A stretch of 64,000 nt of DNA, taken from positions 1-64,000 of the IMG/VR virus record IMGVR_UViG_3300035070_002905. One strand, 5' to 3'. Each line of letters opens with the position of its first letter. The first letter of the stretch is position 1. The position numbers were made by a program, and so were the translations under genes. Shown piece by piece: positions 2,895-31,927 of the stretch. The stretch is from a virus. Below the pieces are notes generated by a model. That model worked only from the letters and a program-made list of their open reading frames with translations. It ran no database searches and was not told the origin of the DNA.

Positions 2895-3770
2895 ATGAAA
2901 AAACTTCTAGCTCTTTGCCTGTTGCTGACAGGTTGTACAAGCCCTCAGACAGAGAGCTGGAAAGAGGAGGCGGCTTCGGCCGCTTCTTGTCCTGCACCTG
3001 TCACCGTCGAGGTTCCCGTCGAGAAGATCGTCGAGGTCCCTGTTGAAAAAATCGTAAAGGTTCCCGTCGAGAAGATCGTCGAGGTTCCCGTGGAGAAAAT
3101 CGTCTATGTTACCAAAACCGAAACAGCCCAGTGTCCCAGCCCCAAGCCTGCCCCGAGCCCTAGTCCTAAAAAGCCTAAAGCCCCGAAGCCTAAAGCACCG
3201 AGCGAACAGCCATCCATCAAGGCACCAAAGCAGTACAACCACCCGCTAGACGATTCGGATAAGATGGTGTTCATGATGGGCACCGACGACTACGGACGCT
3301 ACCTGTACGGCGAAGGGGCTATCGCTCCTGGAACGTACAAGAAATTCCTTAAGTATGTAGCGTACTATAAAGAGCAGGGTACTCCTGTAAGCCGCTTAAT
3401 GATGAACAGCCCGGGCGGTTCTATGCGAGAGGGTATTCTAATCGGAGAGTACTTACACGAGAACAACTGGACTACCGATAGCGATAAGCATATGAGCTGC
3501 TATTCTTCATGTGGGATTATCTACATGGGGGGCGTTAAGAAACGCATGCAGTCTGGAGCTCAGGTAGGATTCCACCGTCCGTATATGCCGGGACAGGCAG
3601 ATACTCCGGCGTTCATCAAAGATATGTACCATACGTATAAGCCCTATTGGGAGTACGTAAATGGCTCGCCGTTATTGTACGATGAGTTCATGACTAAATA
3701 CGACCGTGATATGATGCTAGTTATCATGGCGGAAACTGCAAGACAATTTATTAATGTTGAGGTATATTAA
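2895..3770 (+). CDS. periplasmic lipoprotein with ClpP-superfamily (COG3904-like) protease domain
   Basis: 291 residues. Residues 1-14 form a lipoprotein signal ending in the lipobox LTGC (Cys14). Residues 37-72 carry four copies of a VPVEKIV heptad-like repeat, then a Pro/Lys-rich linker (about 80-110), then a ClpP/crotonase-fold domain. That domain shows NSPGGSMREG (171-180, oxyanion loop), CYSSCGIIYMGGVKKR (202-217; Ser204 aligns with the nucleophile of the CxSxC motif in COG3904 proteins) and GFHRPY (His227). Such proteins are periplasmic serine proteases or protease-like proteins. The repeat-plus-linker stalk would let an acylated protein reach across the periplasm. It overlaps the downstream membrane gene by one base (TAATG). 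The protease assignment is from motifs; target unknown. Confidence 0.75.
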   Translation: MKKLLALCLLLTGCTSPQTESWKEEAASAASCPAPVTVEVPVEKIVEVPVEKIVKVPVEKIVEVPVEKIVYVTKTETAQCPSPKPAPSPSPKKPKAPKPKAPSEQPSIKAPKQYNHPLDDSDKMVFMMGTDDYGRYLYGEGAIAPGTYKKFLKYVAYYKEQGTPVSRLMMNSPGGSMREGILIGEYLHENNWTTDSDKHMSCYSSCGIIYMGGVKKRMQSGAQVGFHRPYMPGQADTPAFIKDMYHTYKPYWEYVNGSPLLYDEFMTKYDRDMMLVIMAETARQFINVEVY

Positions 3771-5095
3771 TGCGTAATAAACTTAAAGAATTTCTAGGGA
3801 TTACTCTCCCGGAACATCCAATGATGTGGATCACATTGTTGGTAATGGGTGCTCTAGTAGTATCCTTTAACGTGATGGGGTATGATATCCTATTCGCTGC
3901 AGACCCGTGGTTCGGCATTGCCAGCCCGTTCGGAATCATGCTAGGCACCTGTGAGGTAGCCGTGCTCCTCTGGATGTCCTCGGTGATCAGCGAATGGTAT
4001 AAGTCCAGTCGCATCCTAAAGGTCCTAACCATTCCAGTATTCCTGGCGTTCTCCTTCCTATGCTACTCGGGTATTAACAGCTACCTGACGACTCTGGCTA
4101 CCGCCGAGATTCAGAAGGTAGAAGAAGTTAAGCTGCAGACCGGTCATAACGAAGAGTACATGATCAAGCTTACCGATGAGAACCTAGATCTATCTACTAA
4201 GCTAGACGAGGCTCGTACCGTACGTGATCGTCTAGATGCGTCTATCGCTGCAGCCAACGGTAGCATCAAAGACTTAGACTTCAAGATCAGCGAGCGTATG
4301 CTGAAGGTCGCTAAGTGTGACGCAGTAGCCGACTGTCGACGTGCCGTTAAGGGTTTTGCAGATCAGAAGGTACCGTACCAGAAGAGCGTCTCTAATATGA
4401 ACGCCGATCGAGAGCTAGTGAATACTCGTATCGTTCGCATGGAGAAGCAACTTAACGAGAACGCCGACGAGATCCGTACGCTTACTAAGAAGTCGGTAGT
4501 TCAGCTAAACGATCAGGCCGGCACCGAGTCCAACTTCACGATGAAGAAAGATTCATACGAGAAGATCGTTCTATCGGTTACCGGTCTATTCGGCTGGGTT
4601 CCAGAGAATCCCTTCCAGGTATTCATTGGATTCGTCTCGGCGTTGATCTACCCGATCTACTTCTTCCTGAACCTATTCCTAAGCCTAAACAGCGAAGGTA
4701 ATCAAGAAGTACGTCGTAAGCGTCAGTCCGATAAGGAAGCTCGTCTAGGTCTATTCCAAGAGCTGCGTCTCGACCTGGAACACCATAAGCTTAATCAGTA
4801 CCGTAAGGCCGCTAAGTACTTCCGAGTATGGGCTGCCCGTCGTACTAAGATTAAGTCTGTCGAGAAGCTGGTAGAAGTAGAAGTACCTACAGATACCATC
4901 GTAGAGAAGCGTGTAGAGGTCCCTGTTGAAGTCATTAAGATTCAGAAGGTAACCGAGCAGGTAGTTATTAAAGAGCCTGAGGTGATCATCCACGAACGTC
5001 TGGTACCTGTACCGGAGAATGCATCTGCAGCTGAACTTAAGGAGTTACTGAATGAAGAGCCTCGATCTGACGCAACTCAATCAGAGCAATCGTAA
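3770..5095 (+). CDS. inner-membrane protein with long coiled coil and VEVPVE-type repeats
   Basis: 441 residues. Three hydrophobic segments (about 19-41, 50-72, 84-102) are followed by a long coiled coil (about 105-270) and a fourth segment near 283-308. A basic stretch (RRKRQ) after the last segment predicts a cytoplasmic C-terminus, so the coil would be periplasmic. A Cys pair (KCDAVADCRR) in the coil could form a disulfide. Residues 350-415 contain repeats (EKLVEVEVP, EKRVEVPVEVI, ERLVPVPE) like those of the upstream lipoprotein and the downstream protein, suggesting a shared complex. The gene overlaps the next by 44 bases. Function unknown. Confidence 0.75.
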   Translation: MRNKLKEFLGITLPEHPMMWITLLVMGALVVSFNVMGYDILFAADPWFGIASPFGIMLGTCEVAVLLWMSSVISEWYKSSRILKVLTIPVFLAFSFLCYSGINSYLTTLATAEIQKVEEVKLQTGHNEEYMIKLTDENLDLSTKLDEARTVRDRLDASIAAANGSIKDLDFKISERMLKVAKCDAVADCRRAVKGFADQKVPYQKSVSNMNADRELVNTRIVRMEKQLNENADEIRTLTKKSVVQLNDQAGTESNFTMKKDSYEKIVLSVTGLFGWVPENPFQVFIGFVSALIYPIYFFLNLFLSLNSEGNQEVRRKRQSDKEARLGLFQELRLDLEHHKLNQYRKAAKYFRVWAARRTKIKSVEKLVEVEVPTDTIVEKRVEVPVEVIKIQKVTEQVVIKEPEVIIHERLVPVPENASAAELKELLNEEPRSDATQSEQS

Positions 5096-5462
5096 GACGG
5101 CACTCGAAAAGGCTTCTGCACGTGATCGTCAGGAGTCTAACCGAGAGGTGCGCCATGACCTCGTCCAGTACAAGGCCCAGCGTGCCACTACAATCGATAA
5201 GGATAAGCGCCTACTGAAGCGTGTACTCCTTACGATTGGCTGTCTGTTTATCGCCGGATGTGCCGCACTAGCACTGCTATACGGATACATCCACATTACC
5301 ACTACGCCGATCATTGAAGAGGTTCCCGTGGAAGTCGTCCCTGAAGAATGCTCTCAGGTACGTCGTAACGGAAAGATCTACATGAACTGCGATGGCGTTA
5401 AGGTCGATGGGGTTACCACCCTCGGCCCTAACGTCGATAACGTCCCGGAACTATTGGAGTAA
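5052..5462 (+). CDS. bitopic membrane protein, 136 aa
   Basis: The start lies 44 bases inside the previous gene. The N-terminal 55 residues are charged and soluble, one membrane segment spans about 57-80 (LLTIGCLFIAGCAALALLYGYI), and the rest should be periplasmic. Just outside the membrane is EEVPVEVVPEE, a shortened form of the repeat seen in the two preceding proteins, followed by a possible disulfide pair (ECSQVRRNGKIYMNC). It probably belongs to the same envelope complex. Confidence 0.7.
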   Translation: MKSLDLTQLNQSNRKTALEKASARDRQESNREVRHDLVQYKAQRATTIDKDKRLLKRVLLTIGCLFIAGCAALALLYGYIHITTTPIIEEVPVEVVPEECSQVRRNGKIYMNCDGVKVDGVTTLGPNVDNVPELLE

Positions 5463-10949: not shown

Positions 10950-11024
10950 GCGTACTTCGTATAGGGGTTATTACCTCTGCCTTCCAAGCAGATGACGCGG
11001 GTTCGATTCCCGCAGTACGCTCCA
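10950..11024 (+). tRNA. tRNA-Gly (anticodon TCC)
   Basis: Acceptor stem GCGTACT pairs with AGTACGC, TTCGATT T-loop present, anticodon loop CTTCCAA gives TCC, and 3' CCA is encoded. Reads GGA/GGG. Confidence 0.9.
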
Positions 11025-11025
11025 A

Positions 11026-11101
11026 GGCCCCTTAGCTCAGCGGTAAGAGCGCGCGACTCATAATCGTACGGTCCCCAGTTCAAATCTGGGAGGGGCCACC
11101 A
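11026..11101 (+). tRNA. tRNA-Ile2 (anticodon CAT, lysidine type)
   Basis: Anticodon loop CTCATAA gives CAT. The body (GGCCCCTTAGCTCAG start, GACTCATAATCG core, AGGGGCCACCA end) is very like E. coli tRNA-Ile2 rather than a methionine tRNA, so the C34 is probably modified to lysidine by host TilS to read AUA. The outer anticodon stem pair is weak (C-A). Confidence 0.8.
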
Positions 11102-11113
11102 ATAAGGATCTTT

Positions 11114-11290
11114 ATGAGAATCGTAAAGAAGACGAAAGAGTTTATCGTCACGGTGAATAGCAATGGATGCCATCAACGTATTAAACTTGATGAATTAGAC
11201 GAGTATATTAGAAAGCTCGTTGCATCTAAACGAATTGCTCCCGGTACCGTAGACGGTCGCCGAGGAGAATGTCTATGTTCGAAGCCCTAG
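11114..11290 (+). CDS. 58-aa basic protein within tRNA cluster
   Basis: Encodes MRIVKKTKEFIVTVNSNGC... to KP-stop. AAGGA at 11104-11108 precedes the ATG with good spacing. Lys/Arg-rich with a C-terminal CLC; function unknown. It lies between tRNA-Ile2 and tRNA-Arg. Confidence 0.55.
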   Translation: MRIVKKTKEFIVTVNSNGCHQRIKLDELDEYIRKLVASKRIAPGTVDGRRGECLCSKP

Positions 11291-11346
11291 CGTTAATCGC
11301 TTTACTCTGGTTGGTATCAGTTACTATAGCCAGTAAGATGTACTAA
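11275..11346 (+). CDS. 23-aa hydrophobic micro-protein
   Basis: Encodes MFEALALIALLWLVSVTIAS plus KMY. It overlaps the previous ORF by 16 bases, has AGGAG 10 bases upstream (11262-11266), and its TAA overlaps the ATG of the next gene. Almost the whole peptide is one membrane helix. The coupled overlaps on both sides argue that it is translated. Confidence 0.5.
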   Translation: MFEALALIALLWLVSVTIASKMY

Positions 11347-11555
11347 TGAAATACAAGATGCAATTCATGGATGATGAACACGCTGAAAGAGCTTATGACG
11401 AGCTCACTTGTATTAAAGTATTAATGGGATCTGCGATAGCCGTAGACTTCCCGTATAGTTACGGTAACACCGTCAGTGAGATCATCAGTAGACACCGAGG
11501 ATACACCGACCAACTTACCGAACACGATTTAAGCGCCCTTAGCTCAGCTGGATAG
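11346..11555 (+). CDS. 69-aa protein running into tRNA-Arg
   Basis: Encodes MKYKMQFMDDEHAERAYDEL...SSAG. Start is coupled to the upstream stop (TAATG). The last eight codons and the stop lie within tRNA-Arg (11533-11609), so its C-terminus ALSSAG is read from the tRNA acceptor and D-arm sequence. This suggests either truncation by tRNA insertion or deliberate overlap. Function unknown. Confidence 0.55.
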   Translation: MKYKMQFMDDEHAERAYDELTCIKVLMGSAIAVDFPYSYGNTVSEIISRHRGYTDQLTEHDLSALSSAG

Positions 11556-11609
11556 AGCGCATCCCTCCTAAGGATGATGTCGCCAGTTCAACTCTGGCAG
11601 GGTGCACCA
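11533..11609 (+). tRNA. tRNA-Arg (anticodon CCT)
   Basis: Acceptor GCGCCCT pairs with AGGGTGC, anticodon stem CATCC/GGATG with loop CTCCTAA (CCT), T-loop TTCAACT, encoded CCA. Reads the rare AGG codon. Its 5' 23 bases overlap the end of a protein gene. Confidence 0.9.
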
Positions 11610-11776
11610 AATGGCGAGTGCGTGGTCGATCACAAAGTATGACGAAAGGAACAAAGTAGCGTAGGTCCCTCGGGCAGCGAAAGTAACAAAGTAGACGAAA
11701 CGTATCGAGATTCCGCGGCCTTTGCTGTGAGGAATACCATCTAGATCAATAGACTAGTGATACTTACAGCACAAAC
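11610..11776 (+). other. non-coding spacer with imperfect hairpin inside tRNA cluster
   Basis: No ORF with an RBS is visible in these 167 bases. At 11724-11770 GCTGTGAGgaatacc...cTTACAGC forms a long imperfect stem (G-T pairs and bulges) just before tRNA-Lys. It could be a remnant tRNA, a processing signal, or a small RNA. Nothing else recognised. Confidence 0.4.
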
Positions 11777-11851
11777 CGGGGCGTAGCTCAGCGGTAGAGC
11801 AGCTGACTTTTAATCAGTTGGTCGATGGTTCGAATCCATCCGCCCCGACCA
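11777..11851 (+). tRNA. tRNA-Lys (anticodon TTT)
   Basis: Acceptor CGGGGCG/CGCCCCG, anticodon stem CTGA/TCAG with loop CTTTTAA (TTT), GTTCGAAT T-loop, encoded CCA. tRNA-Lys is the target of the PrrC anticodon nuclease, relevant to the RnlA/PseT genes in this window. Confidence 0.92.
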
Positions 11852-11852
11852 T

Positions 11853-11928
11853 CCGAGATTAGCTGAGTTTGGTATAGCGCACCGTTTGGGACGGTGGGAC
11901 GCACGTTCGAGTCGTGCATCTCGGACCA
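11853..11928 (+). tRNA. tRNA-Pro (anticodon TGG)
   Basis: Acceptor CCGAGAT/ATCTCGG, anticodon stem CACCG/CGGTG with loop TTTGGGA (TGG), T-arm GCACGTTCGAGTCGTGC, discriminator A and encoded CCA. Confidence 0.9.
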
Positions 11929-11934
11929 TTTTCT

Positions 11935-12009
11935 AGGGGATTAGCTCAGTTGGTAGAGCAGCGGATTCCAAATCCGTAGGTCAGGCGTTCGAGTCGTCTA
12001 TCCCCTGCC
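11935..12009 (+). tRNA. tRNA-Trp (anticodon CCA), terminal A not encoded
   Basis: Acceptor AGGGGAT/ATCCCCT, anticodon stem CGGAT/ATCCG with loop TCCAAAT region giving CCA. After discriminator G12007 only CC is encoded; the next base (G12010) is the first base of tRNA-Thr. The final A must be added by a CCA enzyme, which the phage itself encodes at 26543. Confidence 0.85.
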
Positions 12010-12085
12010 GCCGTTATAGCTCAGTAGGTAGAGCAGCTCACTTGTAATGAGCAGGTCCCGGGTTCGATTCCTGGTGACGGCACCA
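12010..12085 (+). tRNA. tRNA-Thr (anticodon TGT)
   Basis: Acceptor GCCGTTA/TGACGGC, anticodon loop CTTGTAA (TGT) on stem CTCA/TGAG, T-arm CCGGGTTCGATTCCTGG, encoded CCA. Abuts tRNA-Trp with no spacer. Confidence 0.9.
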
Positions 12086-12086
12086 T

Positions 12087-12161
12087 ATCCCGTTCGTCTA
12101 GTGGTCAGGACACTACCCTTTCACGGTGGTAACACGAGTTCGAATCTCGTACGGGATACCA
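12087..12161 (+). tRNA. tRNA-Glu (anticodon TTC)
   Basis: Acceptor ATCCCGT/ACGGGAT, anticodon stem CTACC/GGTGG with loop CTTTCAC (TTC), T-arm ACGAGTTCGAATCTCGT, encoded CCA. Confidence 0.9.
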
Positions 12162-12162
12162 T

Positions 12163-12237
12163 AGGGGTATCGCCAAGCGGTAAGGCCTCGGCTTTTGATG
12201 CCGATATTCGGTGGTTCGAATCCACCTACCCCTTCCA
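12163..12237 (+). tRNA. tRNA-Gln (anticodon TTG)
   Basis: Acceptor AGGGGTA/TACCCCT, anticodon stem CGGC/GCCG with loop TTTTGAT (TTG), T-arm GGTGGTTCGAATCCACC, discriminator T and encoded CCA. Confidence 0.9.
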
Positions 12238-12322
<85 letters not shown>

Positions 12323-14129: not shown

Positions 14130-15074
14130 ATGTTCGATAAAATTCAAGAAATTAAAGGTTCAGACGATAACGTAATCAAGTATGTCTTCGAGACTACCGG
14201 TGATAGCCCTGCGATCTTCGAAGCGGTACTATACAAGTATCCTACCTACGAAGAGCGTACAGTAATGTGCGTTAGCAGCCAGTCAGGTTGTCCGATGGGT
14301 TGTACCTTCTGTGGTACCGGTAAGTTCTTTAACCGTAACGCTACCGGTGATGAGATCCTAGAGCAGGTCGGCTACATGGCCGCTAAGAATAACATCGCCC
14401 TGCGTGACGTGGAGAAGCTGCAGATCATGGTGATGTCAATGGGTGAACCGGTACTTAACGCCGAGAACCTAGATCATGCCTTCGCTAATATCTACGAAGC
14501 AGTTCCGAATGCACAGCTATTGATCTCTACTGCTGCACCGCGTTCAGATCTCGGCTGGAAGATCATCATGAAGATGTGTGAGCGTATCCCTACGATCGGC
14601 CTACAGTTCAGCGTACACGATTCTACCAATGAAGCCCGTGACCTGATCATGCCGATGCGTGCCAAGTTAACTCTAGAGCAAATCGCCGAGAAGGGTGTAG
14701 AGTTCTACGAGCGTACCGGCCGCCGTCCGTTCTTCAACTACTGTGCACATGCAGGTAATGCTACTGAAGCCGATGCTGCACGATTGGCTACTATGTTCAA
14801 CCCTGAAATCTGGGAGGCCACTATCAGTGTAATCTGTGAAGCCGACGAGACTATGGCCGATGCCGTACAGAACCAGGAAGATATGGTTAACGGATTCTCC
14901 GGCATGCTGGTAGAGCGTGGCTTTAATACCCGTGTATTCAACCCGGCCGGTCAAGATGACATCGGGGGTGGATGTGGGCAACTATGGCAGGTCCAGAAGT
15001 GGGCCGAAGAAAACCCTGAGCTGATGAAGCAGTCGGCTGGTAATAAATGCCTGGAGCGTCGTAATGATTCTTAA
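14130..15074 (+). CDS. rlmN: RlmN/Cfr-like radical SAM RNA methyltransferase
   Basis: 314 residues. It carries the full mechanistic set of RlmN: Cys47-VSSQSG-Cys54 matches the E. coli C118...C125 spacing, Cys54-x3-Cys58-x2-Cys61 binds the 4Fe-4S cluster, GEPVLN (105-110) binds SAM, and DDIGGGCGQL places Cys282 at the position of the methyl-carrying Cys355. RlmN makes m2A2503 in 23S rRNA and m2A37 in some tRNAs; Cfr relatives make C8-methyl A2503. The protein lacks most of the N-terminal accessory domain of bacterial RlmN (384 residues in E. coli). Substrate in the phage is unknown; its own tRNAs are candidates. It overlaps the next gene by 11 bases. Confidence 0.85.
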   Translation: MFDKIQEIKGSDDNVIKYVFETTGDSPAIFEAVLYKYPTYEERTVMCVSSQSGCPMGCTFCGTGKFFNRNATGDEILEQVGYMAAKNNIALRDVEKLQIMVMSMGEPVLNAENLDHAFANIYEAVPNAQLLISTAAPRSDLGWKIIMKMCERIPTIGLQFSVHDSTNEARDLIMPMRAKLTLEQIAEKGVEFYERTGRRPFFNYCAHAGNATEADAARLATMFNPEIWEATISVICEADETMADAVQNQEDMVNGFSGMLVERGFNTRVFNPAGQDDIGGGCGQLWQVQKWAEENPELMKQSAGNKCLERRNDS

Positions 15075-16226: not shown

Positions 16227-16460
16227 ATGACACTAGATGAGCTATGGACGGCTCTAGGAAGTCATGACTGGTACTATGATATGTCGGAGGATCCTACCGT
16301 CTATCGTGCCGGTCGTGCAGAAGGAGGTCGCCTGTTCGCGGCCTCTGGACAATCTGAAGAGCATATGCAGATGTATATCGCTTACCAAAAATTCGTATGG
16401 GGCAACGGCCCTGAACCAAAGAGAGAAGACTATGTTTACAGTAACGACTTACTTGCGTGA
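16227..16460 (+). CDS. hypothetical protein, 77 aa
   Basis: ATG 16227 follows AAGGA (16216-16220); the longer frame from 16161 lies within the previous gene. Small acidic, aromatic protein (TALGSHDWYYDMSEDP). Its 3' end overlaps the Prs-like gene by 29 bases, so it is probably coupled to it. Confidence 0.55.
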   Translation: MTLDELWTALGSHDWYYDMSEDPTVYRAGRAEGGRLFAASGQSEEHMQMYIAYQKFVWGNGPEPKREDYVYSNDLLA

Positions 16461-17265
16461 TAATACAATCGTTGAAGAAGTAGAAACCTTCACATTCCCT
16501 GGCGGCGAAGTACAAGTGCGCCTTCCTCTACGTCCGTCAGATGAAGATCCTGTCGAGTGCGTGATCTCTGCTCAGATGATGCGTCCGGAAGATGCGTTCA
16601 CTCTGGCCCTAGTTAAAGGTGCAGTAGAAGCCCGCTACCCTGGCGTAGATATTAGCCTGCGTATGGCTTACGTTCCGTACGCTCGTCAGGACCGTGTATG
16701 CGTTGAAGGTGAGGCTCCGGCTGCACGAGTATTCTGTGAGTTCATTAACTCGTTGAATTTCCGTACGGTTAACATCATGGATCCTCATTCAGATGTAGTC
16801 GGCGCGGTACTAGATCGAGTGGTCATTACCGACCGCAACGATGTAATCCCTGGGACTTCTTTCGGTGAGATGATGCTGCACATCGAAGACGCTGTACTGG
16901 TTAGTCCGGATGCCGGCGCTAATAAGAAGACGTTCGAGCTGGCGTACGATTTAACCGTGCCGATGATTCGTGCCGATAAGAAGCGCTGTGTACGTACCGG
17001 CGATATCCTTGAGACGGAAGTCTTCGGTGATGTAGAAGGTAAGGTCTGCTTCATTGCAGATGATATTGCCGATGGCGGTGCTACATTCATGTTCCTTGCG
17101 CGTGCTCTGAAAGAGAAGGGTGCTGCAGAGGTTCACCTATGGGTTACCCACGGTATCTTCAGCAAGGGCGTAGAGTATCTGTTCGCGGATATCGATACGA
17201 TCCACACAACTAACTCATGGCCTCAAGATGAGATCTCTGGCCTACACGTAGAGGAAATCGTATGA
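16432..17265 (+). CDS. prs: ribose-phosphate pyrophosphokinase-like (Prs or Adps-type)
   Basis: 277 residues from ATG 16432. PRPP-synthetase features: MAYVPYARQDRV (79-89, ATP-binding flexible-loop start), MDPHSD (116-121), SPDAGANKK (158-166), and the PRPP loop CFIADDIADGGATF (206-219). Bacterial Prs makes PRPP from ribose-5-phosphate and ATP; it is about 315 residues, so this is a short form. In the described phage NAD-reconstitution pathway NARP1 a Prs-like enzyme (Adps) instead pyrophosphorylates ADP-ribose, working with a NAMPT-like partner. The NAMPT-like gene one position downstream makes that reading possible. Sequence alone does not settle the substrate. Confidence 0.88.
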   Translation: MFTVTTYLRDNTIVEEVETFTFPGGEVQVRLPLRPSDEDPVECVISAQMMRPEDAFTLALVKGAVEARYPGVDISLRMAYVPYARQDRVCVEGEAPAARVFCEFINSLNFRTVNIMDPHSDVVGAVLDRVVITDRNDVIPGTSFGEMMLHIEDAVLVSPDAGANKKTFELAYDLTVPMIRADKKRCVRTGDILETEVFGDVEGKVCFIADDIADGGATFMFLARALKEKGAAEVHLWVTHGIFSKGVEYLFADIDTIHTTNSWPQDEISGLHVEEIV

Positions 17266-18041
17266 GCCTAGCTAAACTTAAGGAAGCCTTTGGGAACGAC
17301 GGCGATGCACCTCTTAGTAGCCTACTTCGCCATAAGCGTTACATGGAGATCTACCCTTTCATCTATATCGAGAAGGGGTTGGCTCGTAAGGAGTTAGAGC
17401 TTAACATGGTCCTCTGTAAGTCTAAGGAAGACCTTGAGTACAGCGAAGAGCATGGCCATATGATGTACGTCGGGTCTGGTCGTCATGAATTCAAAGTGAC
17501 TACCTGTACGGCAGATGATCAGGCCGAGTTCGACGAGTTCGTAGAAGGCTGGTACAATACGGCCGACCTTCCTCGACCTGATCCTATGGTTCCAGTCGTC
17601 CAGGATATCATCGATCTACCGGTACTCAGTACTCGTACGATCGGCGAGGTAGCTATGGCCTTCGACGACGATGTACTATTCGACATTCAGTACTCGGCTA
17701 CGCAGTCGATCTACGAAGAGCATCCTGATGTTAAGATCGAAAAGATCATGCAGTACACTACTGAGTACGGTAAGTACGGCCAGGAAGTCTACCGTCTAGC
17801 TTACTTCGGTAAGGTGTTCGGATTCCTTACTAGCTCTGGTAAATACCTAGATACATACACTGCGTATATTCTAGACGAGCACACTTATAAGTGTTTCTGT
17901 ACGATGCTCGAAAATGAATACTGGGAGAAAGACGAGTGGACTGGTACCGCTGAACTTACTCCCGACTCTCCACTAACATTCTTAAGCGACCAACTGCTAG
18001 ATGCTCTAGCGGAAGGCGACTCAATCGATCAAACTCATTAA
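17262..18041 (+). CDS. hypothetical protein between Prs- and NAMPT-like genes
   Basis: 259 residues, acidic and soluble, starting in an ATGA overlap with the Prs-like gene and ending 10 bases before the NAMPT-like gene. No motif I recognise. Its position inside a NAD-related operon suggests an accessory or regulatory part in that pathway, which is inference from context only. Confidence 0.7.
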   Translation: MSLAKLKEAFGNDGDAPLSSLLRHKRYMEIYPFIYIEKGLARKELELNMVLCKSKEDLEYSEEHGHMMYVGSGRHEFKVTTCTADDQAEFDEFVEGWYNTADLPRPDPMVPVVQDIIDLPVLSTRTIGEVAMAFDDDVLFDIQYSATQSIYEEHPDVKIEKIMQYTTEYGKYGQEVYRLAYFGKVFGFLTSSGKYLDTYTAYILDEHTYKCFCTMLENEYWEKDEWTGTAELTPDSPLTFLSDQLLDALAEGDSIDQTH

Positions 18042-18051
18042 GGAAATCATC

Positions 18052-20058
18052 ATGGAAATTACACTAGAACAGCTACGCGCAAACTACCTAGAAGCAGCAA
18101 TGGTATTCGAAGTACCTGCAGAAGCAATGACTGACTCTTACAAGATCGGTATGTCTATGCTACACGAACTAAGCATCTTCGGTTGCCTGGTAGAGATCGC
18201 TAACTCGTACTCTAACTTCACTCCTCGTAAGAATGCCTACATGGAATTCTGTGAGCTGAGCGATGAGCACATCGTCGTGTACGGTACTCGTGAGAGCTAC
18301 CAGGTGATCGTCGATATGTGGGACCGTACGTTCTTCAAGGTAGACCAGAAGCTGGCTATGAAGCGTCTGCGTCGTCGTACCCGTAACCACTTCGGTTCAA
18401 TTGCAGAGCACAGTAAGTTCCTGCACGATATGAAGTCGCTGCACGACCTAGGCTACCTGCCGCTTGAAGTCCGTGCGATTGACGAAGGTACTAAGTACCC
18501 GATCGGTCTGCCGGTATTCACCGTTAAGGCTACAGTAGACGGCTACGGCTGGTTGGTGAACTTTACCGAGACGTTATCGTCAGGTCTGATCTGGCCGATG
18601 ATCAACACGGCTACTAAGATCGAGCAGTTCTTCCTACAGGCTAAACACTACGGTGAGCTGTCTGCACCTCAGGAAGTAGTTGACATGTGGCTACCTATCT
18701 GTATCCACGAGTTCGGTATGCGCGGCTACCGTGGTCCTCAGGATCAGATCCGTACATCTTCGTGTCATAACCTGTTCTTCCTCGGTTCAGATACGATCGG
18801 TACAATCGACTTCTTCGAGCACTACTACGGCGCCGACTCGGATACCGCTCCGATTGCCGTAAGTGTACGTGCCTCTGAGCATGCAGATATCAGCCGTATG
18901 CTGAGCCTGTTCCGCCATATCGCACAGAAGGCAATTGACGAAGATGCGATTACCCATAAGTGTGTGGCGGTAATGAAGACTGCAGAGGAGCAGGCTAACT
19001 TCAAGATCTCTACTCTAGGAGAAGGAGAGTGCGTTAAGGGTTACCGTGGAGGTTACTTTGAGAATATCGATGAAGATCCTGCAGAGGTCTTCCCGATCCA
19101 TGTCGATCCTCAGGATGTTCTGGATAATACTGAGTTCTACGTGCTGAAATACTTCGTAGATAATTCTACCGGCATCATGTCGTATGTATCTGATACGGAG
19201 AACTACTACCGCCTGCTTAACGAGTACGGTGCGCAACTTAAGGGTGCTATCGAGAACCGTGAAGCTCGTGAAGACGGTCAACCGCCTATCCTCGTGTTCC
19301 GTCCCGATAGCTCTCGCCATACTCCTCTTAACGTAATCTGTGGTTACCAGATCTTCGAGCATATGAGCGATTACTCTAAGGGTGATTACGTTACGTATGA
19401 TAATCGACATGATGATAACATCGTCGTCAAGAATGGTAAAGGCGAGTACTACCTTGCGAAGTTCAGCGGATGGGCTCCGGGCAAGTATCACTACTTGATC
19501 GGTGAACAGATCACTAAAGAAGAAGCGCAGGGTTCACTGGTAAGCCTATGGAATACCTTCGGTGGTGCAGAAGTGGAAACTCCTGCCGGTCTGATGAAGT
19601 TGATTAATCCTGCAGTAGGCTTGATCTACGGCGAGGCTATCAGCCAGAAGCACCAGAAGGAGATCTACGAGCGCATGATCGAGATGGGCTTCTCTGCAGT
19701 TAACGTATTGATGGGCAAGGGTTCTTATGCTTCGCTTGAGAATTCTACACGTGACCTATTCTCTATGTCGTACAAGCAGACGTTCTCTGAAGCGATCATC
19801 GACGGCGAACGCGTTAACCTTGAGCAGCAGAAGACTCCGATGGGAGACATGAGCAAGAAGTCGGCTAAGGGTCTACTATGTGTACCTTACGTAGATCCGC
19901 TACTAGGGTTCGTCTTAGAGCAGGAAGTTAGCGAAGAGCGTGAGCAGGAAGGTTGCTTGACTCTGCTACTGCGCAACGGCGTATTCTACAAGAACCAGAC
20001 GTTGGATGATATCAAAGCCAACTACGCGTCTAACACTTACTACCACCTGGAGAAGTAA
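18052..20058 (+). CDS. nadV: nicotinamide phosphoribosyltransferase-like (NadV/Namat-type)
   Basis: 668 residues. NAMPT-family hallmarks: NSYSNFTPRKNAY near 48 (substrate-binding start), KIEQF after a PMINTATK segment, HEFGMRGYRG near 219, SVRASEHADISRML near 272, FRPDSSRHT near 416, and GLIYGEAIS near 524 followed by a FSAVNVLMGKGSY glycine loop. These enzymes join nicotinamide to PRPP to make NMN. The protein is about 170 residues longer than usual NadV/NAMPT (460-500). In the NARP1 pathway the NAMPT-like enzyme (Namat) joins nicotinamide to ADP-ribose pyrophosphate to give NAD directly. The AAGGA RBS at 18041-18045 and operon with a Prs-like gene support a joint role. Confidence 0.88.
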   Translation: MEITLEQLRANYLEAAMVFEVPAEAMTDSYKIGMSMLHELSIFGCLVEIANSYSNFTPRKNAYMEFCELSDEHIVVYGTRESYQVIVDMWDRTFFKVDQKLAMKRLRRRTRNHFGSIAEHSKFLHDMKSLHDLGYLPLEVRAIDEGTKYPIGLPVFTVKATVDGYGWLVNFTETLSSGLIWPMINTATKIEQFFLQAKHYGELSAPQEVVDMWLPICIHEFGMRGYRGPQDQIRTSSCHNLFFLGSDTIGTIDFFEHYYGADSDTAPIAVSVRASEHADISRMLSLFRHIAQKAIDEDAITHKCVAVMKTAEEQANFKISTLGEGECVKGYRGGYFENIDEDPAEVFPIHVDPQDVLDNTEFYVLKYFVDNSTGIMSYVSDTENYYRLLNEYGAQLKGAIENREAREDGQPPILVFRPDSSRHTPLNVICGYQIFEHMSDYSKGDYVTYDNRHDDNIVVKNGKGEYYLAKFSGWAPGKYHYLIGEQITKEEAQGSLVSLWNTFGGAEVETPAGLMKLINPAVGLIYGEAISQKHQKEIYERMIEMGFSAVNVLMGKGSYASLENSTRDLFSMSYKQTFSEAIIDGERVNLEQQKTPMGDMSKKSAKGLLCVPYVDPLLGFVLEQEVSEEREQEGCLTLLLRNGVFYKNQTLDDIKANYASNTYYHLEK

Positions 20059-23169: not shown

Positions 23170-24057
23170 ATGAAAAAGATCCTAATCGCTTCTGCTATCG
23201 CACTTGCAACTTCTCCGGCTTTCGCTTCAATCCAGGCTCCTGCTGCAGATCAATTTGTAGTATCTGGTGAACTGGCTGCTGGTGGTTACTCTAACGATGG
23301 TAAAGTGATCAACGATGGTGTAACTGGTATCGAGCTGGGCGTTAGCTATATGAACGGTCCGTTGGTAGGTTACGCTGAGATCGATGCTGATCTTGACAAT
23401 GACTTCGGCGTAGACCATACTGGTTCAGATGCAGTTGACTTGGACAAACTATGGTTCGGCTACCAGACAAAAGTTGGTACTCTATCATACGGTGTGGAAA
23501 ATGATACAGCCCTGGATAAGATCGATGGTGCTGGCGACCAGTCTATCGAGTTCGGCCTAAGCGCGGCGGATGCATCTGATGCATTCAACGTGGTGAAATG
23601 GGAGGGCGGCTACGGTCCTGTAGTATACGGCGTGTCTACTTCTGATACAGGTGATGACGCAGGTGATGACTTCACGTTCAACACTTACGCTGGTATCGAA
23701 GACGGCATTCTTAAGATGTACGTAGGTTACGAGCAACGTGACTCTGACTTCGAAGTTCTGACGGTTACTGGTAACGCTACTCTGGGCGATTTCGTCCTAG
23801 GTGCAAACGTATGGCGTGAAGGTGAAGACCTTGACAAAGACGGTTACTACGTATCTGCAGGCTACCAGATTAACGAACTGTACATCGGTGGTGGTGCTGG
23901 TCGTAAGAGCGAAGACGATAATGGCAACATCGAAGACGTGGCTAACATCGGCGTATCGTACGCGTTCACTGATCAGGTAGAAGGTCTATTCGACTACCAA
24001 CGTGAGATCGACGCAGAGAAGGACAACTTCTTCGCGAAAGTAGCTTACAATTTCTAA
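23170..24057 (+). CDS. phage-encoded outer-membrane porin-like protein
   Basis: 295 residues: Sec signal (MKKILIASAIALATSPAFA), then alternating amphipathic beta strands with many Gly/Asp/Tyr (GVSYMNGPLVGYAEIDADL, LWFGYQTKVGTLSYGVEND, YVSAGYQINELYIGGGAG) and a C-terminal strand ending in Phe (FFAKVAYNF), the recognition signal of the BAM machinery. This is the build of general Gram-negative porins of the marine Vibrio/Shewanella type. Phage porins (for example Lc of PA-2) replace host porins and change phage receptors. It has its own promoter and terminator, so it is a stand-alone unit. Its codon use is more highly optimised than that of the neighbours. Confidence 0.8.
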   Translation: MKKILIASAIALATSPAFASIQAPAADQFVVSGELAAGGYSNDGKVINDGVTGIELGVSYMNGPLVGYAEIDADLDNDFGVDHTGSDAVDLDKLWFGYQTKVGTLSYGVENDTALDKIDGAGDQSIEFGLSAADASDAFNVVKWEGGYGPVVYGVSTSDTGDDAGDDFTFNTYAGIEDGILKMYVGYEQRDSDFEVLTVTGNATLGDFVLGANVWREGEDLDKDGYYVSAGYQINELYIGGGAGRKSEDDNGNIEDVANIGVSYAFTDQVEGLFDYQREIDAEKDNFFAKVAYNF

Positions 24058-26542: not shown

Positions 26543-27775
26543 ATGAAGATATATCTAGTTGGCGGAGCTGTCCGCGACGAGTTGCTTGGCCTGGAGCCTA
26601 AAGACCAAGACTACGTGGTCGTTGGAGCAACACCAGAAGAAATGCTTAACGCAGGCTACAAACAGGTCGGCGCTGAGTTCCCTGTATTCCTACATCCAGA
26701 TAGTGGAGAAGAGTATGCACTTGCAAGAACTGAAGTTAAGAACGGAAATGGGTACCAAGGGTTCAACTGCGCCTTTGGGCCAGAGGTTACTCTCGAAGAA
26801 GATCTCGCACGTCGTGACCTCACGATCAATGCCATGGCTCGAGATGTTATCTCAGGAGAGCTGTATGACCCGTACGGAGGTCAACAAGATCTAGAGGACA
26901 AAGTGCTAAGGCCTACTACAGAAGCCTTCAGAGAGGATCCTGTGCGCGTTCTACGCGTTGCTCGATTCCTTGCTCGATACGATGGCTTCTCGTACAGCGA
27001 TGAGCTATTCGATACGATCGGCAGTATGATTAACTCCGGAGAGCTAGAGCACCTTAAGCCTGAGCGAGTATGGATCGAGACCGAGAAGGCCCTTATGGAA
27101 CCTAAGCCGTCACGCTACTTCAAGTTCCTACGTGGCATGGGGATATTCCCCGAGATCGATAACCTGCAGAAGGTCGAGCAGAGTGAGCGCTGGCATCCCG
27201 AGGGCGACGCCTTTATCCATACGATGATGGTGATCGACGAGGCTGCCCGCCGTGGCTGTGACCTAGAGACTCGCTTCGGCTGTCTGATGCACGACCTAGG
27301 TAAGTGGCCGACATACCAGGAGCGTGGCAATACGCATGGTCATGAGGGTGATGGTGTCGAGCACATCGAAGCCTTCTGCCGTCGCCTGAAGATTCCTAAC
27401 GATCACCGCGAGTTCGCTAAGCTGGTCAGCCGGTATCATACGCATACTCATAAGGCCTTCGAGTTGAAGCCGGCTACCTTGCACGATATGATCGCTGCAG
27501 TTAGTCGTAAGGACTTCTGGTTCGCGCGCTTCCTAGACGTCTGCGTCTGTGATAAGAACGGCCGAGCCGAGCCGGCATGCGATTGGGATTACTTCCAGCC
27601 TGCCTATGTACACGCCTGCGAACACCGTATGCGTCTTACCGATACTAAGCCGATCACCGATCGTATGGCTCCCGGCCCTGCAGTCGGCGAGGCTATTCGC
27701 TCGGCACGCATCGCGTCGATCCGCGGAGTACACAAAGAGTTCTATCAAAGTAAGAATCTTAAGGGAGAGAACTAA
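26543..27775 (+). CDS. cca: CCA-adding enzyme (tRNA nucleotidyltransferase)
   Basis: 410 residues, the length of the E. coli enzyme (412). Nucleotidyltransferase domain: YLVGGAVRDELLG (4-16) and the metal-binding DQD (21-23), RRDLTINAMA near 96-105, YGGQQDLEDKVLR and the EDPVRVLRVARFLAR class II signature near 135. A C-terminal HD domain (CLMHDLGKW near 248) matches proteobacterial Cca. It adds or repairs the 3' CCA of tRNAs, required here because the phage tRNA-Trp gene does not encode the last A. Preceded by AGGAG. Confidence 0.95.
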   Translation: MKIYLVGGAVRDELLGLEPKDQDYVVVGATPEEMLNAGYKQVGAEFPVFLHPDSGEEYALARTEVKNGNGYQGFNCAFGPEVTLEEDLARRDLTINAMARDVISGELYDPYGGQQDLEDKVLRPTTEAFREDPVRVLRVARFLARYDGFSYSDELFDTIGSMINSGELEHLKPERVWIETEKALMEPKPSRYFKFLRGMGIFPEIDNLQKVEQSERWHPEGDAFIHTMMVIDEAARRGCDLETRFGCLMHDLGKWPTYQERGNTHGHEGDGVEHIEAFCRRLKIPNDHREFAKLVSRYHTHTHKAFELKPATLHDMIAAVSRKDFWFARFLDVCVCDKNGRAEPACDWDYFQPAYVHACEHRMRLTDTKPITDRMAPGPAVGEAIRSARIASIRGVHKEFYQSKNLKGEN

Positions 27776-28260
27776 TGAAAGCGTACACATTTATCAACAG
27801 CTACATCTGCGGGATTCAAGTAGGTATTCAAGCCGGTCACTCTATCGTCGAGTTGATGACTAGGTACCGTCCAGAGCCTTGCGAGTCATACCCAGATCCG
27901 ACCGTACAGGAAAAGGTCGTCATGGATTGGGCTGACCATCATAAGACATTCGTCTGGCTGGACGGCGGAGATGCTAAGGCTATGGATACAGTATACGATG
28001 TAGCGCGTAACTCTCGACTTCCGTTTTCTTTCTTCGAGGAACCTGGACTAGGCGGGTACATGACGGCTGTAACTGTACTACTACCTAGTGATCTGGTGGA
28101 TACTGTGAATCTACTACGTAATAATCGCGATGCAGTATACACTGAAGGTATGGAGGGCGAAATCTTCTGGGAGACCGATATGGTGCTCTCTAACGATTGT
28201 ACTAAAAGAGAGGCTCCTTTACTGGAGCTGATCGCTAACTCTCGGAGTAAAAGTCTATGA
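27775..28260 (+). CDS. Pth2-like peptidyl-tRNA hydrolase (tentative)
   Basis: 161 residues, starting on the stop of cca (TAATG). The pattern GIQVGIQAGHSIVEL, VVMDWADHHKTFVWLDGGD, AMDTVYDVARNSRLPFSFFEE, GGYMTAVTVLLPSDLVDTV follows the order of the archaeal/eukaryotic-type Pth2 fold (QxxxGHA, K-V-V, gl.....DaG, TVLAigP). A tRNA-directed enzyme fits the neighbouring cca. The C-terminal 30 residues are extra. The match is by motif order only, and catalytic residues are not certain. Confidence 0.55.
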   Translation: MKAYTFINSYICGIQVGIQAGHSIVELMTRYRPEPCESYPDPTVQEKVVMDWADHHKTFVWLDGGDAKAMDTVYDVARNSRLPFSFFEEPGLGGYMTAVTVLLPSDLVDTVNLLRNNRDAVYTEGMEGEIFWETDMVLSNDCTKREAPLLELIANSRSKSL

Positions 28261-28505
28261 AGCCTCATGTTGAAGTTGCTAAGGGATATCTATTTTACTT
28301 CTCGGAAGATGCAGTATGCAGTCCAGATACTCCCTTGGAAAACAGTCACTTGCACTGGATGCTCTTAGAGATTATCGGTACTGAGATGTCCGATACTAAG
28401 GCTAATTGCTGGCTCGGTTTCGTTCAGGGTATCATGACGTCTAAGGGTTATCTCGACGTTCAGGATGAGCGTAACCGCACTCGTGAAATCTTCAAGGGGG
28501 CCTGA
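28257..28505 (+). CDS. hypothetical protein, 82 aa
   Basis: Starts in an ATGA overlap. Helical soluble protein (LHWMLLEIIGTEMSDTKANCWLGFVQGIM). No motif recognised. Confidence 0.6.
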   Translation: MKPHVEVAKGYLFYFSEDAVCSPDTPLENSHLHWMLLEIIGTEMSDTKANCWLGFVQGIMTSKGYLDVQDERNRTREIFKGA

Positions 28506-28705
28506 TGTCTACTGAAGCACCTATAGATCGAGTGGCCGCCCGAAGGAAGCGTATAGCCGAGCGTTCGGTTGATCTACTTAACGGCGCCGAGGTTAGTCCC
28601 TCGGATCGATGCCTGTACTGTATGAACTACGGGAATTATATAGTTAACACTGATGTGCGATACTGTCGCGAACATATGGAGAAGCGTCATGAAACAAATA
28701 GTTAA
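28505..28705 (+). CDS. small zinc-finger-like protein, 66 aa
   Basis: Basic N-terminus (RVAARRKRIAERS) and C-terminal CLYCMNYGNY...RYCREH (C-x2-C ... C-x2-H). Possibly RNA or DNA binding. It overlaps the RlaP-like gene by 17 bases. Confidence 0.6.
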   Translation: MSTEAPIDRVAARRKRIAERSVDLLNGAEVSPSDRCLYCMNYGNYIVNTDVRYCREHMEKRHETNS

Positions 28706-29729
28706 GCATTATGCAGGGAGCCTGGCATATGGAACGAACCTTCCGACAAGTGATGTGGACTTTCGAGGGATCTACTGTGATCCCCCGCAGGGTATCATTA
28801 CGCCCTGGACCAAGCCTCGTACAGAGGTCTGGAAGGATAAGTCCGAAGAAGATACGGAGTTCTACGAGCTCCACAAGTACATGGGCGGATATATCGACGG
28901 GTCACCGAATATCCTAGAGACTCTCTGGGTTGATCGAGAGGACATCGTCCAGTCTCTTCCTGTGTACGACTACCTACGTGCGCACGCCCCCGATCTGCTC
29001 AGCCGTAAACTCCGCTACACCTTCGGCGGATATGCCCTAGGTCAGATGAAGCGAATCAAAGGCCATAACAAGTGGATTAACAATCCTCAGGAAGAGGCTC
29101 CACCGGTTCGTGCCGATTACTTCAAGTTGATCCAGAACTTCCTCCCGCAGCAGATCTTCGCTAAAGACTTCAGCATCCGTGAGTGTAACGGGCACCATAT
29201 CCTAGTGCCTTACGGTAATGATATCTACGGCGTAGTAGCCTGCCACGGCGGACGCGTCCTGAACGACGACGGTTCTATCCACAAGCTGGACTATAAGAAT
29301 CTCCCGGACGAGATGAAGAAGAAACATCCACAGTTCATCGTTAAGCTGAACGAAGATGTCTTCCAGCACGATCTGGCCAACCATAAGAACTACTGGAAAT
29401 GGAAGAGAGAGCGTAATGAATCACGATCAGACCTCGAAGAGAAACACGGGTACGACACCAAACACGCCATGCACATCGTACGACTTCTTAGAATGGGTGA
29501 GGAAGTTCTTCGGGATGGAGTGGTTAACGTCAAACGACCGGACGCCGCCGAACTACTAGCCATTCGTAATGGCGCTTGGACGTACGAGGAGTTACTCGAA
29601 TGGTCTGAGCATCAGGATAACGAGCTGAATAAGCTTATGCTTACCAGCCCACTCCCCGCTAAGCCTGACTACGAGTTGGCTAAGCGAGTACTAATCAAGG
29701 CAGAGGAGATGTGCCATGAAATTTCTTAG
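28689..29729 (+). CDS. RlaP-like nucleotidyltransferase (COG3541 type)
   Basis: 346 residues from ATG 28689. The N-terminus has the DNA-polymerase-beta-superfamily signature GSLAYGTNLPTSDVDFRG (10-27), where GS and D-x-D bind nucleotide and metal. The rest (GGYIDGSPNILETLWVDRE, KHAMHIVRLLRMGEE) fits the large COG3541/RlaP group. RlaP proteins are predicted to add nucleotides to broken RNA ends in repair systems, which agrees with the nearby ligases and kinases. Activity not demonstrated. Confidence 0.72.
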   Translation: MKQIVKHYAGSLAYGTNLPTSDVDFRGIYCDPPQGIITPWTKPRTEVWKDKSEEDTEFYELHKYMGGYIDGSPNILETLWVDREDIVQSLPVYDYLRAHAPDLLSRKLRYTFGGYALGQMKRIKGHNKWINNPQEEAPPVRADYFKLIQNFLPQQIFAKDFSIRECNGHHILVPYGNDIYGVVACHGGRVLNDDGSIHKLDYKNLPDEMKKKHPQFIVKLNEDVFQHDLANHKNYWKWKRERNESRSDLEEKHGYDTKHAMHIVRLLRMGEEVLRDGVVNVKRPDAAELLAIRNGAWTYEELLEWSEHQDNELNKLMLTSPLPAKPDYELAKRVLIKAEEMCHEIS

Positions 29730-29823
29730 ATTTGATACTGACACCGAGCGCTGCGAAGTATGCGGCCGTATGTACGATCCACTAGGCTACTGCTGTAAGA
29801 AGCTATGCCTAAGGGGGTTATAG
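29716..29823 (+). CDS. 35-aa zinc-knuckle protein
   Basis: Encodes MKFLRFDTDTERCEVCG...LCLRGL, overlapping the previous gene by 14 bases; its TAG abuts the next ATG. CEVCGRMY...YCCKKLC provides four or five Cys in a tiny treble-clef-like arrangement. Confidence 0.5.
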   Translation: MKFLRFDTDTERCEVCGRMYDPLGYCCKKLCLRGL

Positions 29824-30198
29824 ATGTGGACGATCGAGATAGATTATACTACCGGTAACTCCTTCGGGAGTGAACGTGGTACCGAGGAGATCGGCTGCGT
29901 GTTCGAGCATCTGGATGACGCCAAGACGGCTCTAGGCTACATCAAGGAGCATTACGCGGCTGTACAAGCGGAAGAGTGTAGTACTAACTACTACCACCGC
30001 AGTCGAGGACTTAAATTTGATATCGAAGCGTTCAAGTCCCGCCCATGGTATTCTAAAGACTATTGGACAGGATCTCTATTCGTCCCGATCGGTACTGAAG
30101 AGCAGAAGATCTCTGCCTTCTGGACGGGTTACTTTGAGACCCTCCACGGAGCTAAGATTAGAGCTATTGGAGATTCAGATATGGAGTTCACTTTATGA
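29824..30198 (+). CDS. hypothetical protein, 124 aa
   Basis: Soluble. Residues 30-60 are helical (LDDAKTALGYIKEHYAAVQ), and an aromatic segment (RPWYSKDYWTGSLFVPIG) suggests a beta core. No family recognised. Overlaps the next gene by 4 bases. Confidence 0.6.
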   Translation: MWTIEIDYTTGNSFGSERGTEEIGCVFEHLDDAKTALGYIKEHYAAVQAEECSTNYYHRSRGLKFDIEAFKSRPWYSKDYWTGSLFVPIGTEEQKISAFWTGYFETLHGAKIRAIGDSDMEFTL

Positions 30199-30482
30199 TA
30201 ATCCAAATGCCGCAACAGGCTCCTGAGCCGATATTCGATCAGGATGGTAATGAACTGCCGCCGAATATCGCCGAGCAGGAGTTCGTGGAATGGCTGCGAG
30301 GTAAGTTGGATGAATTCATCCCGCACCTCAAAGCTGTCTGCGAGGAAAAGAAGTTATACTTCAAGGAGTTAGGATTCGATCAGATGCAGAATGGTCCAGT
30401 CTTTCAAGTTGAAGATGAAGAGTACGTGATCTACAAAGATGGGTTCACGGTTGGTTGGCGTTATGTAGGGAAAGTAGCATGA
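30195..30482 (+). CDS. hypothetical acidic protein, 95 aa
   Basis: Pro-rich acidic start, helical middle ([21 protein letters not shown]). Its last codons overlap the ATG of nadE, so the two are translationally coupled. No motif recognised. Confidence 0.6.
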
Positions 30483-31291
30483 AACAGCAAATTTTAGCAG
30501 AAATGAAAGTTAAACCAGAGATCCACGTAGACGAAGAAGTACGTAAGCGCGTGGATTTCCTTAAGTACAATCTAACCGAGACGGGTATGAGAACGTTGGT
30601 ACTGGGTATTAGCGGCGGCGTAGACTCCACGGTCTGCGGCAAGTTATGTCAGATGGCCGTCAACGAGCTCGGCAGCGACTACCGCTTCATTGCAGTACGT
30701 CTGCCACACGGCGTCCAGGCCGATGAAGATGATGCTCAGGATGCTCTGAAGTTCATCAACCCGAGCAAGGTCGTTACCATTGACGTCGAGCCTGGTACTT
30801 CAGGTATTCACTTCGCTACCATGAGCGCTCTATGGGCTGCCGGCGAGGAGGGTGTTACTAAGAAGAACATCGACTTCGTTAAGGGTAATGTAAAGGCCCG
30901 CATGCGCATGATCGCCCAGTACGAGATCGCCGGTCTAACCAACGGGCTTGTAGTAGGTACCGATCATTCAGCTGAAGCGGTAGTAGGCTTCTATACCAAG
31001 CACGGCGATGGTGCCTGCGATCTGGCTCCGCTGTTCGGTCTGAATAAGCGTCAGGTTCGTTCGCTGGGCGAGTATCTAGGTGCTCCCGACTACCTATTCA
31101 ATAAGGAGGCTACCGCAGATCTTGAAGAAGATAAAGAGCAGCTTCCCGATGAACAGGCCCTCGGTCTGGACTACGACGAGATCGATGACTTCCTAGAGGG
31201 TCGCGAGGTCTCCGACTCGGCTGACGATACGATCGTCGGCTGGTATCTAACGACGCAGCATAAGCGTCATCCTGCACGAACTCCGGAGTAG
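30479..31291 (+). CDS. nadE: NAD synthetase, ammonia-type
   Basis: 270 residues from ATG 30479, close to E. coli NadE (275). [12 protein letters not shown] (40-51) is the N-type ATP pyrophosphatase P-loop (SGGxDS). [23 protein letters not shown] and [14 protein letters not shown] are strongly diagnostic of NadE, as is [17 protein letters not shown] near the end. It amidates deamido-NAD to NAD. There is no glutaminase domain, so it uses ammonia. With the Prs/NAMPT pair it gives the phage a second entry into NAD synthesis. Confidence 0.93.
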
Positions 31292-31294
31292 ACT

Positions 31295-31927
31295 ATGTAC
31301 AAGAAGTACCCACGTACCTTACACCATCCGATGTCACTATCGGTATCTTCAGATGATAAGATAATCTCGAGCCTAGACGATATGATCGGTCGTGAGTGCT
31401 TCGCCTCTATTAAGATGGACGGTGAGTGTACTACGATCTATCCTAATGCGTACACGCATGCACGCTCTACGGACTCTAAGTACCATCCAAGCCGTACCCA
31501 CCTGCAGTCCTTCGCGGCGAGTATCGCGTACAAGATCCCCGAGGGCCTTCGGGTCTGCGGGGAGAACTGTTATGCCCAGCACAGCCTAGCGTACACCGAC
31601 CTCCGAGATTACTTCCTCGGGTTCAGCGTATGGGACGACGAGAAGGCGCTCTCGCTGGACGATACCCTAGAGCTCTTCGAAGAGCTTGGGGTTACTCCGG
31701 TAGAGATTGTCTGGCGCGGCATACTGACACAAGAGATCATCGACGAGCTATGGGCCGGCGTAGATCCTGAAGTAACTGAAGGCCTGGTCTTCCGCGTAGT
31801 CGACGAGGTTCCTTACGAGGACTTCGGCCGACTGGCGTTTAAGATCGTCCGTGATAACCACGTTCAGACTAATAAACATTGGTCTCACCAAGAGGTAGTA
31901 CCTAATGAACTTGCGAAATCTCGATGA
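31295..31927 (+). CDS. KxDG-type RNA ligase
   Basis: 210 residues. Adenylation motif I ASIKMDGEC puts the nucleophile at Lys40; motif III-like GLRVCGENCYAQHS, then a LGFSVWDD segment, motif IV TEGLVFRV and motif V LAFKIVRDN follow in order. It is a compact nucleotidyltransferase core without a large C-terminal domain, like Rnl2-related ligases next to HD-Pnk in bacteria. It overlaps the HD-Pnk gene by 23 bases, strongly suggesting healing and sealing of the same RNA. Confidence 0.82.
   Translation: MYKKYPRTLHHPMSLSVSSDDKIISSLDDMIGRECFASIKMDGECTTIYPNAYTHARSTDSKYHPSRTHLQSFAASIAYKIPEGLRVCGENCYAQHSLAYTDLRDYFLGFSVWDDEKALSLDDTLELFEELGVTPVEIVWRGILTQEIIDELWAGVDPEVTEGLVFRVVDEVPYEDFGRLAFKIVRDNHVQTNKHWSHQEVVPNELAKSR

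Follow-up and report, generated by a model that had tools for sequence, protein, structure and literature searches.

A 172-kb phage record with a probable NARP1-type module for NAD+ reconstitution, in variant form

When a phage carries a gene of the Prs family beside one of the NAMPT family, does the pair run classical nicotinamide salvage, or does it rebuild nicotinamide adenine dinucleotide (NAD+) after NAD-depleting immunity has acted? The question is raised by the phage record IMGVR_UViG_3300035070_002905 of IMG/VR (172,110 bases), whose first 64 kb, the window analysed here, encode in succession a Prs-family protein (P0001), an orphan (P0002) and a NAMPT-family protein (P0003), with the NAD synthetase gene nadE further downstream. 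Phage NAD+ synthesis as a response to NADase defences has been described for NadV, NadM and NadR (PMC9503650), and the NARP1 pathway, which pairs the Prs-like Adps with the NAMPT-like Namat, is likewise described as a phage answer to these defences (PMC12774641, PMC13232231); its wider interest is that of a broad counter to NAD-depleting immunity. Gene order, family, clade, catalytic residues, fold and two residue marks of the Namat type place the window pair with NARP1, and P0001 and P0003 very probably form a NARP1-type NAD+ reconstitution module of variant form. NARP1 itself is thus a known system, and the window copy belongs to a side branch of it with a rebuilt substrate-gripping site. 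The preliminary description had left NARP1 open beside classical Prs plus NadV salvage; the NARP1 assignment is supported by the trees, the selectivity residues, the Adps-type loop and the gene pairing, while the argument from protein length and the suggestion that the third gene is a component fall away.

Mechanistically, by analogy with the characterised relatives from which substrates, product and counter-defence role are carried over, P0001 is predicted to use ATP to pyrophosphorylate ADP-ribose (ADPR) into ADPR-PP, and P0003 to swap the pyrophosphate of ADPR-PP for nicotinamide, giving NAD+ in one step. The pair would in this way restore NAD+ after host TIR, SIR2 or SEFIR NADases have split it into ADPR and nicotinamide. 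The adenine clamp of P0003, rebuilt with a longer helix, Asp361 changed to Glu, no Tyr396 and an aromatic residue at helix position 3 (residues 361 and 396 in SPbetaL1 numbering), would still hold ADPR-PP.

The three genes and nadE lie where they had been placed and have the lengths given for them, and the proposed single operon agrees with the layout. P0001, P0002 and P0003 form one operon-like run, since an ATGA overlap joins the first two, 10 nt separate P0002 from P0003 (whose ATG is preceded by AGGA) and the following open reading frame begins within the 3' end of P0003. The 277-residue form of P0001 uses an internal ATG at 16432, the longest reading frame starting at 16264, and the starts of homologues agree with the internal site. 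All family assignments were borne out by matches far above chance: P0001 to phrog_619 (1.5e-77) and, above its cut-off, to TIGR01251, P0003 to phrog_448 (1.1e-113), and the nadE product to NCBIfam PRK00768 (1.8e-113, above cut-off). NARP1 has its Prs-family and NAMPT-family genes next to each other on one strand, as in the window, and a Prs-family gene close to the NAMPT gene is present in 88 of 91 phage loci against 2 of 81 NadV loci. The protein lengths, read earlier as atypical and as a hint of NARP1, proved normal in phages, where Prs-family partners span 257-334 amino acids (272 in SPbetaL1 Adps) and NAMPT homologues 463-725; being atypical only in comparison with bacterial Prs and NadV, length was dropped as evidence.

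As references we used SPbetaL1 Adps (WIT26982) and Namat (WIT26983, identical in sequence to PDB 9w5w/9w5x), the felixounavirus Escherichia phage garuso as a stand-in for Bas63, mycobacteriophage Lolly9, human NAMPT (identical to its PDB sequence), a KVP40-like NadV and 80 bacterial NadV loci, with E. coli Prs and the Prs from genomes of 15 NadV-bearing bacteria as canonical Prs. The Namat panel comprised 56 ordinary Namats, 14 variant rows (window included) and 24 NadV/NAMPT rows, and the features of Namat were taken from PMC12774641. Both trees were built by quick searches with the diagnostic columns removed, support being given as SH-aLRT; the Adps tree contains long branches, and its inner branches are weak. 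The phage panel was selected through an alignment built from the window protein's own relatives, which makes it an uneven sample of phage NAMPT. Viral contigs were searched with an alignment as the query, which was required, a search with the single P0003 sequence having returned no matches.

Placement inside the canonical Prs and NadV clades had been named beforehand as a finding that would count against NARP1, and both proteins lie outside those clades. P0001 falls within the phage Adps clade and outside the 19 canonical Prs (SH-aLRT 100, loop columns removed), while P0003 groups with the SPbetaL1, felixounavirus and mycobacteriophage Namats against all 24 NadV/NAMPT (SH-aLRT 100).

P0001 retains the Prs motifs YARQDR, DPHSD, SPDAG and K..R and differs from canonical Prs in the ribose-phosphate loop. 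Position 6 of this loop is Thr or Ser in 19/19 canonical Prs and in none of 74 phage Adps (Gly in 64/74), and position 10 is Phe in 74/74 phage Adps against 1/19 canonical Prs. The P0001 loop, DDIADGGATF, is of the Adps type at both positions, by a signature derived in this analysis rather than published, SPbetaL1 Adps itself reading DDLSSFGGTF. The D[TS][GA]GT-type ribose-5-phosphate loop of canonical Prs is not matched, P0001 having DGGAT in its place. The garuso Adps resembles it, reading DDICDGGRTF...VTHGIFSKG against DDIADGGATF...VTHGIFSKG in the window. We infer that a loop of the Adps type makes space for the AMP portion of ADPR.

On the Namat side, the catalytic core is kept. Ten of the 12 NAD-contact positions of SPbetaL1 Namat (D13, Y15, F189, R192, D215, A242, R306, D308, G360 and A362) are identical in P0003, whereas S190 is replaced by Gly, the residue of NAMPT, and D361 by Glu. 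P0003 retains D28, Y30, F221, R224, D247, A274, H277, R417, D419 and G527, including the nicotinamide-contact Asp (SPbetaL1 D215), which is D247, the Asp of the GSDT motif. The AlphaFold2 model of P0003 (pLDDT 88.6, pTM 0.88, disordered at residues 300-348) finds its best PDB folds in the Namat crystals 9w5x/9w5w (E 3e-38, TM-score 0.90 by target length), followed by NadV of Haemophilus ducreyi (HdNadV) and then human NAMPT; fold alone does not separate the Namat, NadV and NAMPT classes.

Discrimination comes from the adenine grip, which is what distinguishes Namat from ordinary NAMPT. Position 362 is Ser or Ala in 54/56 ordinary Namats and 14/14 variants and Gly in all 24 NadV rows; position 3 of the selectivity-clamp helix is aromatic in 55/56 ordinary Namats, 12/14 variants and 0/24 NadV. 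P0003 has Ala529 and Tyr559 at these positions, so that, by residue comparison within the panel, both marks that set Namat apart from NadV side it with Namat. The NadV site itself is GDG in 24/24 tree rows and GGxLLQ in nearly all, and GEA together with GSYASLENSTRD in P0003 match neither. The clamp loop was dropped as a discriminator because its Phe/Tyr occurs in NadV too. Under the published stacking rule (Arg at +3, or a residue at +4; PMC12774641) Tyr63 of P0003 fits +4, a position that in NadV is often Phe or Tyr as well, but the +3 residue is Ala in place of the customary Arg, Lys or Tyr. In published mutants, removing one clamp residue has a mild effect and removing the stackers of both loop and helix a severe one (PMC12774641), which is compatible with ADPR-PP as the donor of P0003; the protein keeps a helix aromatic and a loop Tyr.

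Compared with SPbetaL1 NARP1, the window pair thus shares Adps before Namat, the catalytic residues, the aromatic at helix position 3, Ala at 362 and the fold, at 30% identity over the aligned Namat columns. It differs in a helix longer by one residue, Glu for Asp361, the missing Tyr396, two inserts and an orphan gene between the enzymes. Insert 1 covers 74 residues after the catalytic His region, the corresponding stretch being much shorter in Vibrio phage D69 and little or absent in the others. Garuso shares an enlarged Namat (593 aa) and an aromatic at clamp-loop +4, and differs in GDS and in a clamp of the ordinary kind, GSYTYQYMTRD. P0003 has the fold and catalytic core in common with HdNadV and with classical NadV/NAMPT (human, KVP40-like, bacterial), all of which differ in GDG, in a helix that is mostly G[MS]GG[GA]LLQ (GAQTYQ in HdNadV) and in usually having no adjacent Prs.

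Several observations weigh against the NARP1 assignment. For the Namat clamp helix the published signature is GSX-phi-X-phi-X-phi-TRD, in which positions 3 and 7 are aromatic (PMC12774641), and GSYASLENSTRD fails it through one extra residue and Glu at position 7; it retains GS, the aromatic at position 3 and TRD, and at least 21/56 ordinary Namats likewise lack an aromatic at position 7. Asp361, a contact of the AMP phosphate, is Glu. SPbetaL1 Namat forms NMN (nicotinamide mononucleotide) from phosphoribosyl pyrophosphate (PRPP) in vitro (PMC12774641), and the literature searched held no measured activity for the sub-branch to which P0003 belongs. Finally, SPbetaL1 Namat has as its sister HdNadV (57% identity, support 99), for which NMN production is described (PMC6095924), so that tree position does not settle the donor; the substrate is not callable from family trees alone.

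A rival reading is classical salvage, with P0001 as a PRPP synthetase and P0003 as a NadV/NAMPT whose NMN a host NMNAT would turn into NAD+. In its favour are the catalytic cores of Prs and NAMPT, which the two proteins keep, the PRPP use of SPbetaL1 Namat and the nesting of HdNadV among Namats. HdNadV, however, carries Gly at 362 and the helix GAQTYQRNTRD, hence neither clamp mark, and no Prs is encoded on its plasmid pNAD1 (gene at 3828-5315 of the stretch examined). Residue marks and partner gene therefore fit the NMN role of HdNadV where tree position does not, and they side P0003 with Namat. Further points against classical salvage are that neither protein falls among canonical Prs or NadV, that P0001 has the Adps-type loop, and that a search for NMNAT (PF01467) found none across the 172-kb record; this absence fits NARP1 because a one-step route to NAD+ needs no NMNAT. 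We regard classical salvage as unlikely. HdNadV itself looks like a Namat relative that has reverted to PRPP, or else one in which activity on ADPR-PP has gone untested. On a further plasmid, pSC2 of Paenibacillus polymyxa, a Prs-family gene and a NAMPT-family gene stand next to each other (1562-4006 of the stretch examined), likely a plasmid-borne NARP1.

Does the orphan between the two enzyme genes belong to the pathway? It had been suggested as a new component, and a role as a signal-degrading enzyme or sponge would find a precedent in the mycobacteriophage DyoEdafos, whose NARP1 operon is also accompanied by an extra gene, for the RyR-domain protein RyDEP (PMC13232231); P0002 lies between the genes for the two enzymes, in close coupling with each. 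Against this, P0002 has no Pfam domain, RyR included, and no relative by phage tblastn (to E 10) or in viral contigs. Its one PHROG match is weak (phrog_17356, E 0.0029), a 59-record PHROG scan found it absent from the 58 other NARP1-family phage records, a PADLOC search gave nothing usable and its AlphaFold2 model is uninformative (pLDDT 34). In relatives, its place is taken by an 89-aa gene in D69 and by no gene in Pseudoalteromonas phage PH357 and Shewanella phage 1/40, and about half of phage loci have a gap or a gene between the two enzymes. P0002 is probably a lineage-specific orphan and not a NARP1 component; a part for it in the pathway seems quite improbable, and the earlier suggestion was abandoned.

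The NARP1-type module of the window is distinctive in its Namat: P0003 is a variant rather than a typical one. The 14 rows that include it form one group in the first NAMPT tree (support 87), and share GE[AS] for GD[SAG] and a helix of 12 residues for 11 (14/14 against 0/56 ordinary Namats and 1/24 NadV). A single origin of this sub-branch is likely but not firm, because with HdNadV added the tree requires two changes instead of one. The closest NAMPT relatives of P0003 in the phage collection are those of D69, PH357 and 1/40, with Namat identities in the alignment of 74%, 52% and 56% (D69 66% by tblastn) and Adps identities to P0001 of 38%, 23% and 26%, respectively. All three share the sub-branch marks (GEA/GES, GS[YF]A[SN]L...TRD) and a Prs-family gene upstream, have neither P0002 nor NadE, and are annotated just as Prs and NAMPT. 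Across the genome D69 is a distant relative: matches exist for 95 of 227 predicted genes, at a median identity of 48%, and gene order around the locus is shared.

Sharing of partners argues that the donor has stayed the same. The Adps partners of variant Namats do not form one group: their tree shows 7 label changes, of which starred branches force at least 5. This exchange of partners suggests that variant and ordinary Namats draw on a common intermediate, ADPR-PP, which is probably still the donor of the sub-branch. That the sub-branch is a biochemically distinct Namat class, using a different ADP-ribose-like donor (for instance one that gives NADP+ directly, or one derived from another immune product), strikes us as very doubtful. 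A donor changed specifically to another nucleoside-diphosphate ribose, such as phosphorylated ADPR giving NADP+ directly, is likewise very improbable, for although Glu361, the longer helix and the loss of Tyr396 co-occur in the 14 rows exactly at the AMP-binding site, the partner Adps intermingle with those of ordinary Namats and 12/14 rows retain the principal stacking aromatic.

The sub-branch was not found in the NARP1 literature searched, a search outside which the supplements and the original NARP1 paper lay, and the published sequence signature would miss it. In keeping its partner and catalytic core while rebuilding the adenine grip, it offers a natural test of which residues ADPR-PP recognition requires and which are exchangeable.

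Table 1. Coordinates in the window of the genes and protein features discussed.
Feature	Residues	Position	Strand	Remarks
P0001, Adps-like, Prs family	277 aa	16432-17265	+	
Adps-type ribose-phosphate loop DDIADGGATF (P0001)	210-219	17059-17088	+	includes loop positions 6 and 10
P0002, orphan	259 aa	17262-18041	+	
P0003, Namat-like, NAMPT family	668 aa	18052-20058	+	
Clamp-loop equivalent RKNAY (P0003)	59-63	18226-18240	+	Tyr63 at alternative stacking position
Catalytic histidine His277, SEH (P0003)	277	18880-18882	+	counterpart of SPbetaL1 His245; the same residue in all 53 sequences compared
Insert 1 (P0003)	285-358	18904-19125	+	largely disordered (300-348); mostly specific to this phage
Insert 2 (P0003)	435-489	19354-19518	+	ordered, beta-rich; other phage Namats carry inserts here too
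AMP-phosphate site GEA (P0003)	527-529	19630-19638	+	SPbetaL1 360-362 GDA; NadV GDG
Selectivity-clamp helix GSYASLENSTRD (P0003)	557-568	19720-19755	+	longer by one residue than in all ordinary Namats of the panel
NadE (P0004), ammonia-dependent NAD synthetase	270 aa	30479-31291	+	PRK00768

The nadE gene, reported about 10 kb downstream, is indeed present, and its membership of NARP1 was rejected as a conserved link, NadE being found in 0 of the 34 other NARP1-family records tested. Because it is rare in phages (37 of 50,697 records) and absent from those 34, we read it as an added route to NAD+, from deamido-NAD, that is probably separate from and complementary to the NARP1 pair. NadE may help during NAD depletion.

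Other genes of the window were noted in passing. At 23170-24054 (+) lies a signal-peptide protein that, from a reading of its sequence, resembles a Gram-negative outer-membrane porin; it has no Pfam or PHROG match and a relative in one phage record, Vibrio phage D479 (47.5%). Near the NARP1 pair, a dense RNA-repair block (10950-12322 and 26543-38764) comprises 10 tRNAs, a CCA-adding enzyme, an RlaP-like nucleotidyltransferase, two RNA ligases, an HD+kinase protein and PNKP, which points to a response to anticodon nucleases too. Two radical SAM proteins are encoded at 14130-15071 (+) and 36110-36979 (+), the former looking, by its sequence, like an RlmN-type rRNA/tRNA methyltransferase, which is unusual in a phage.

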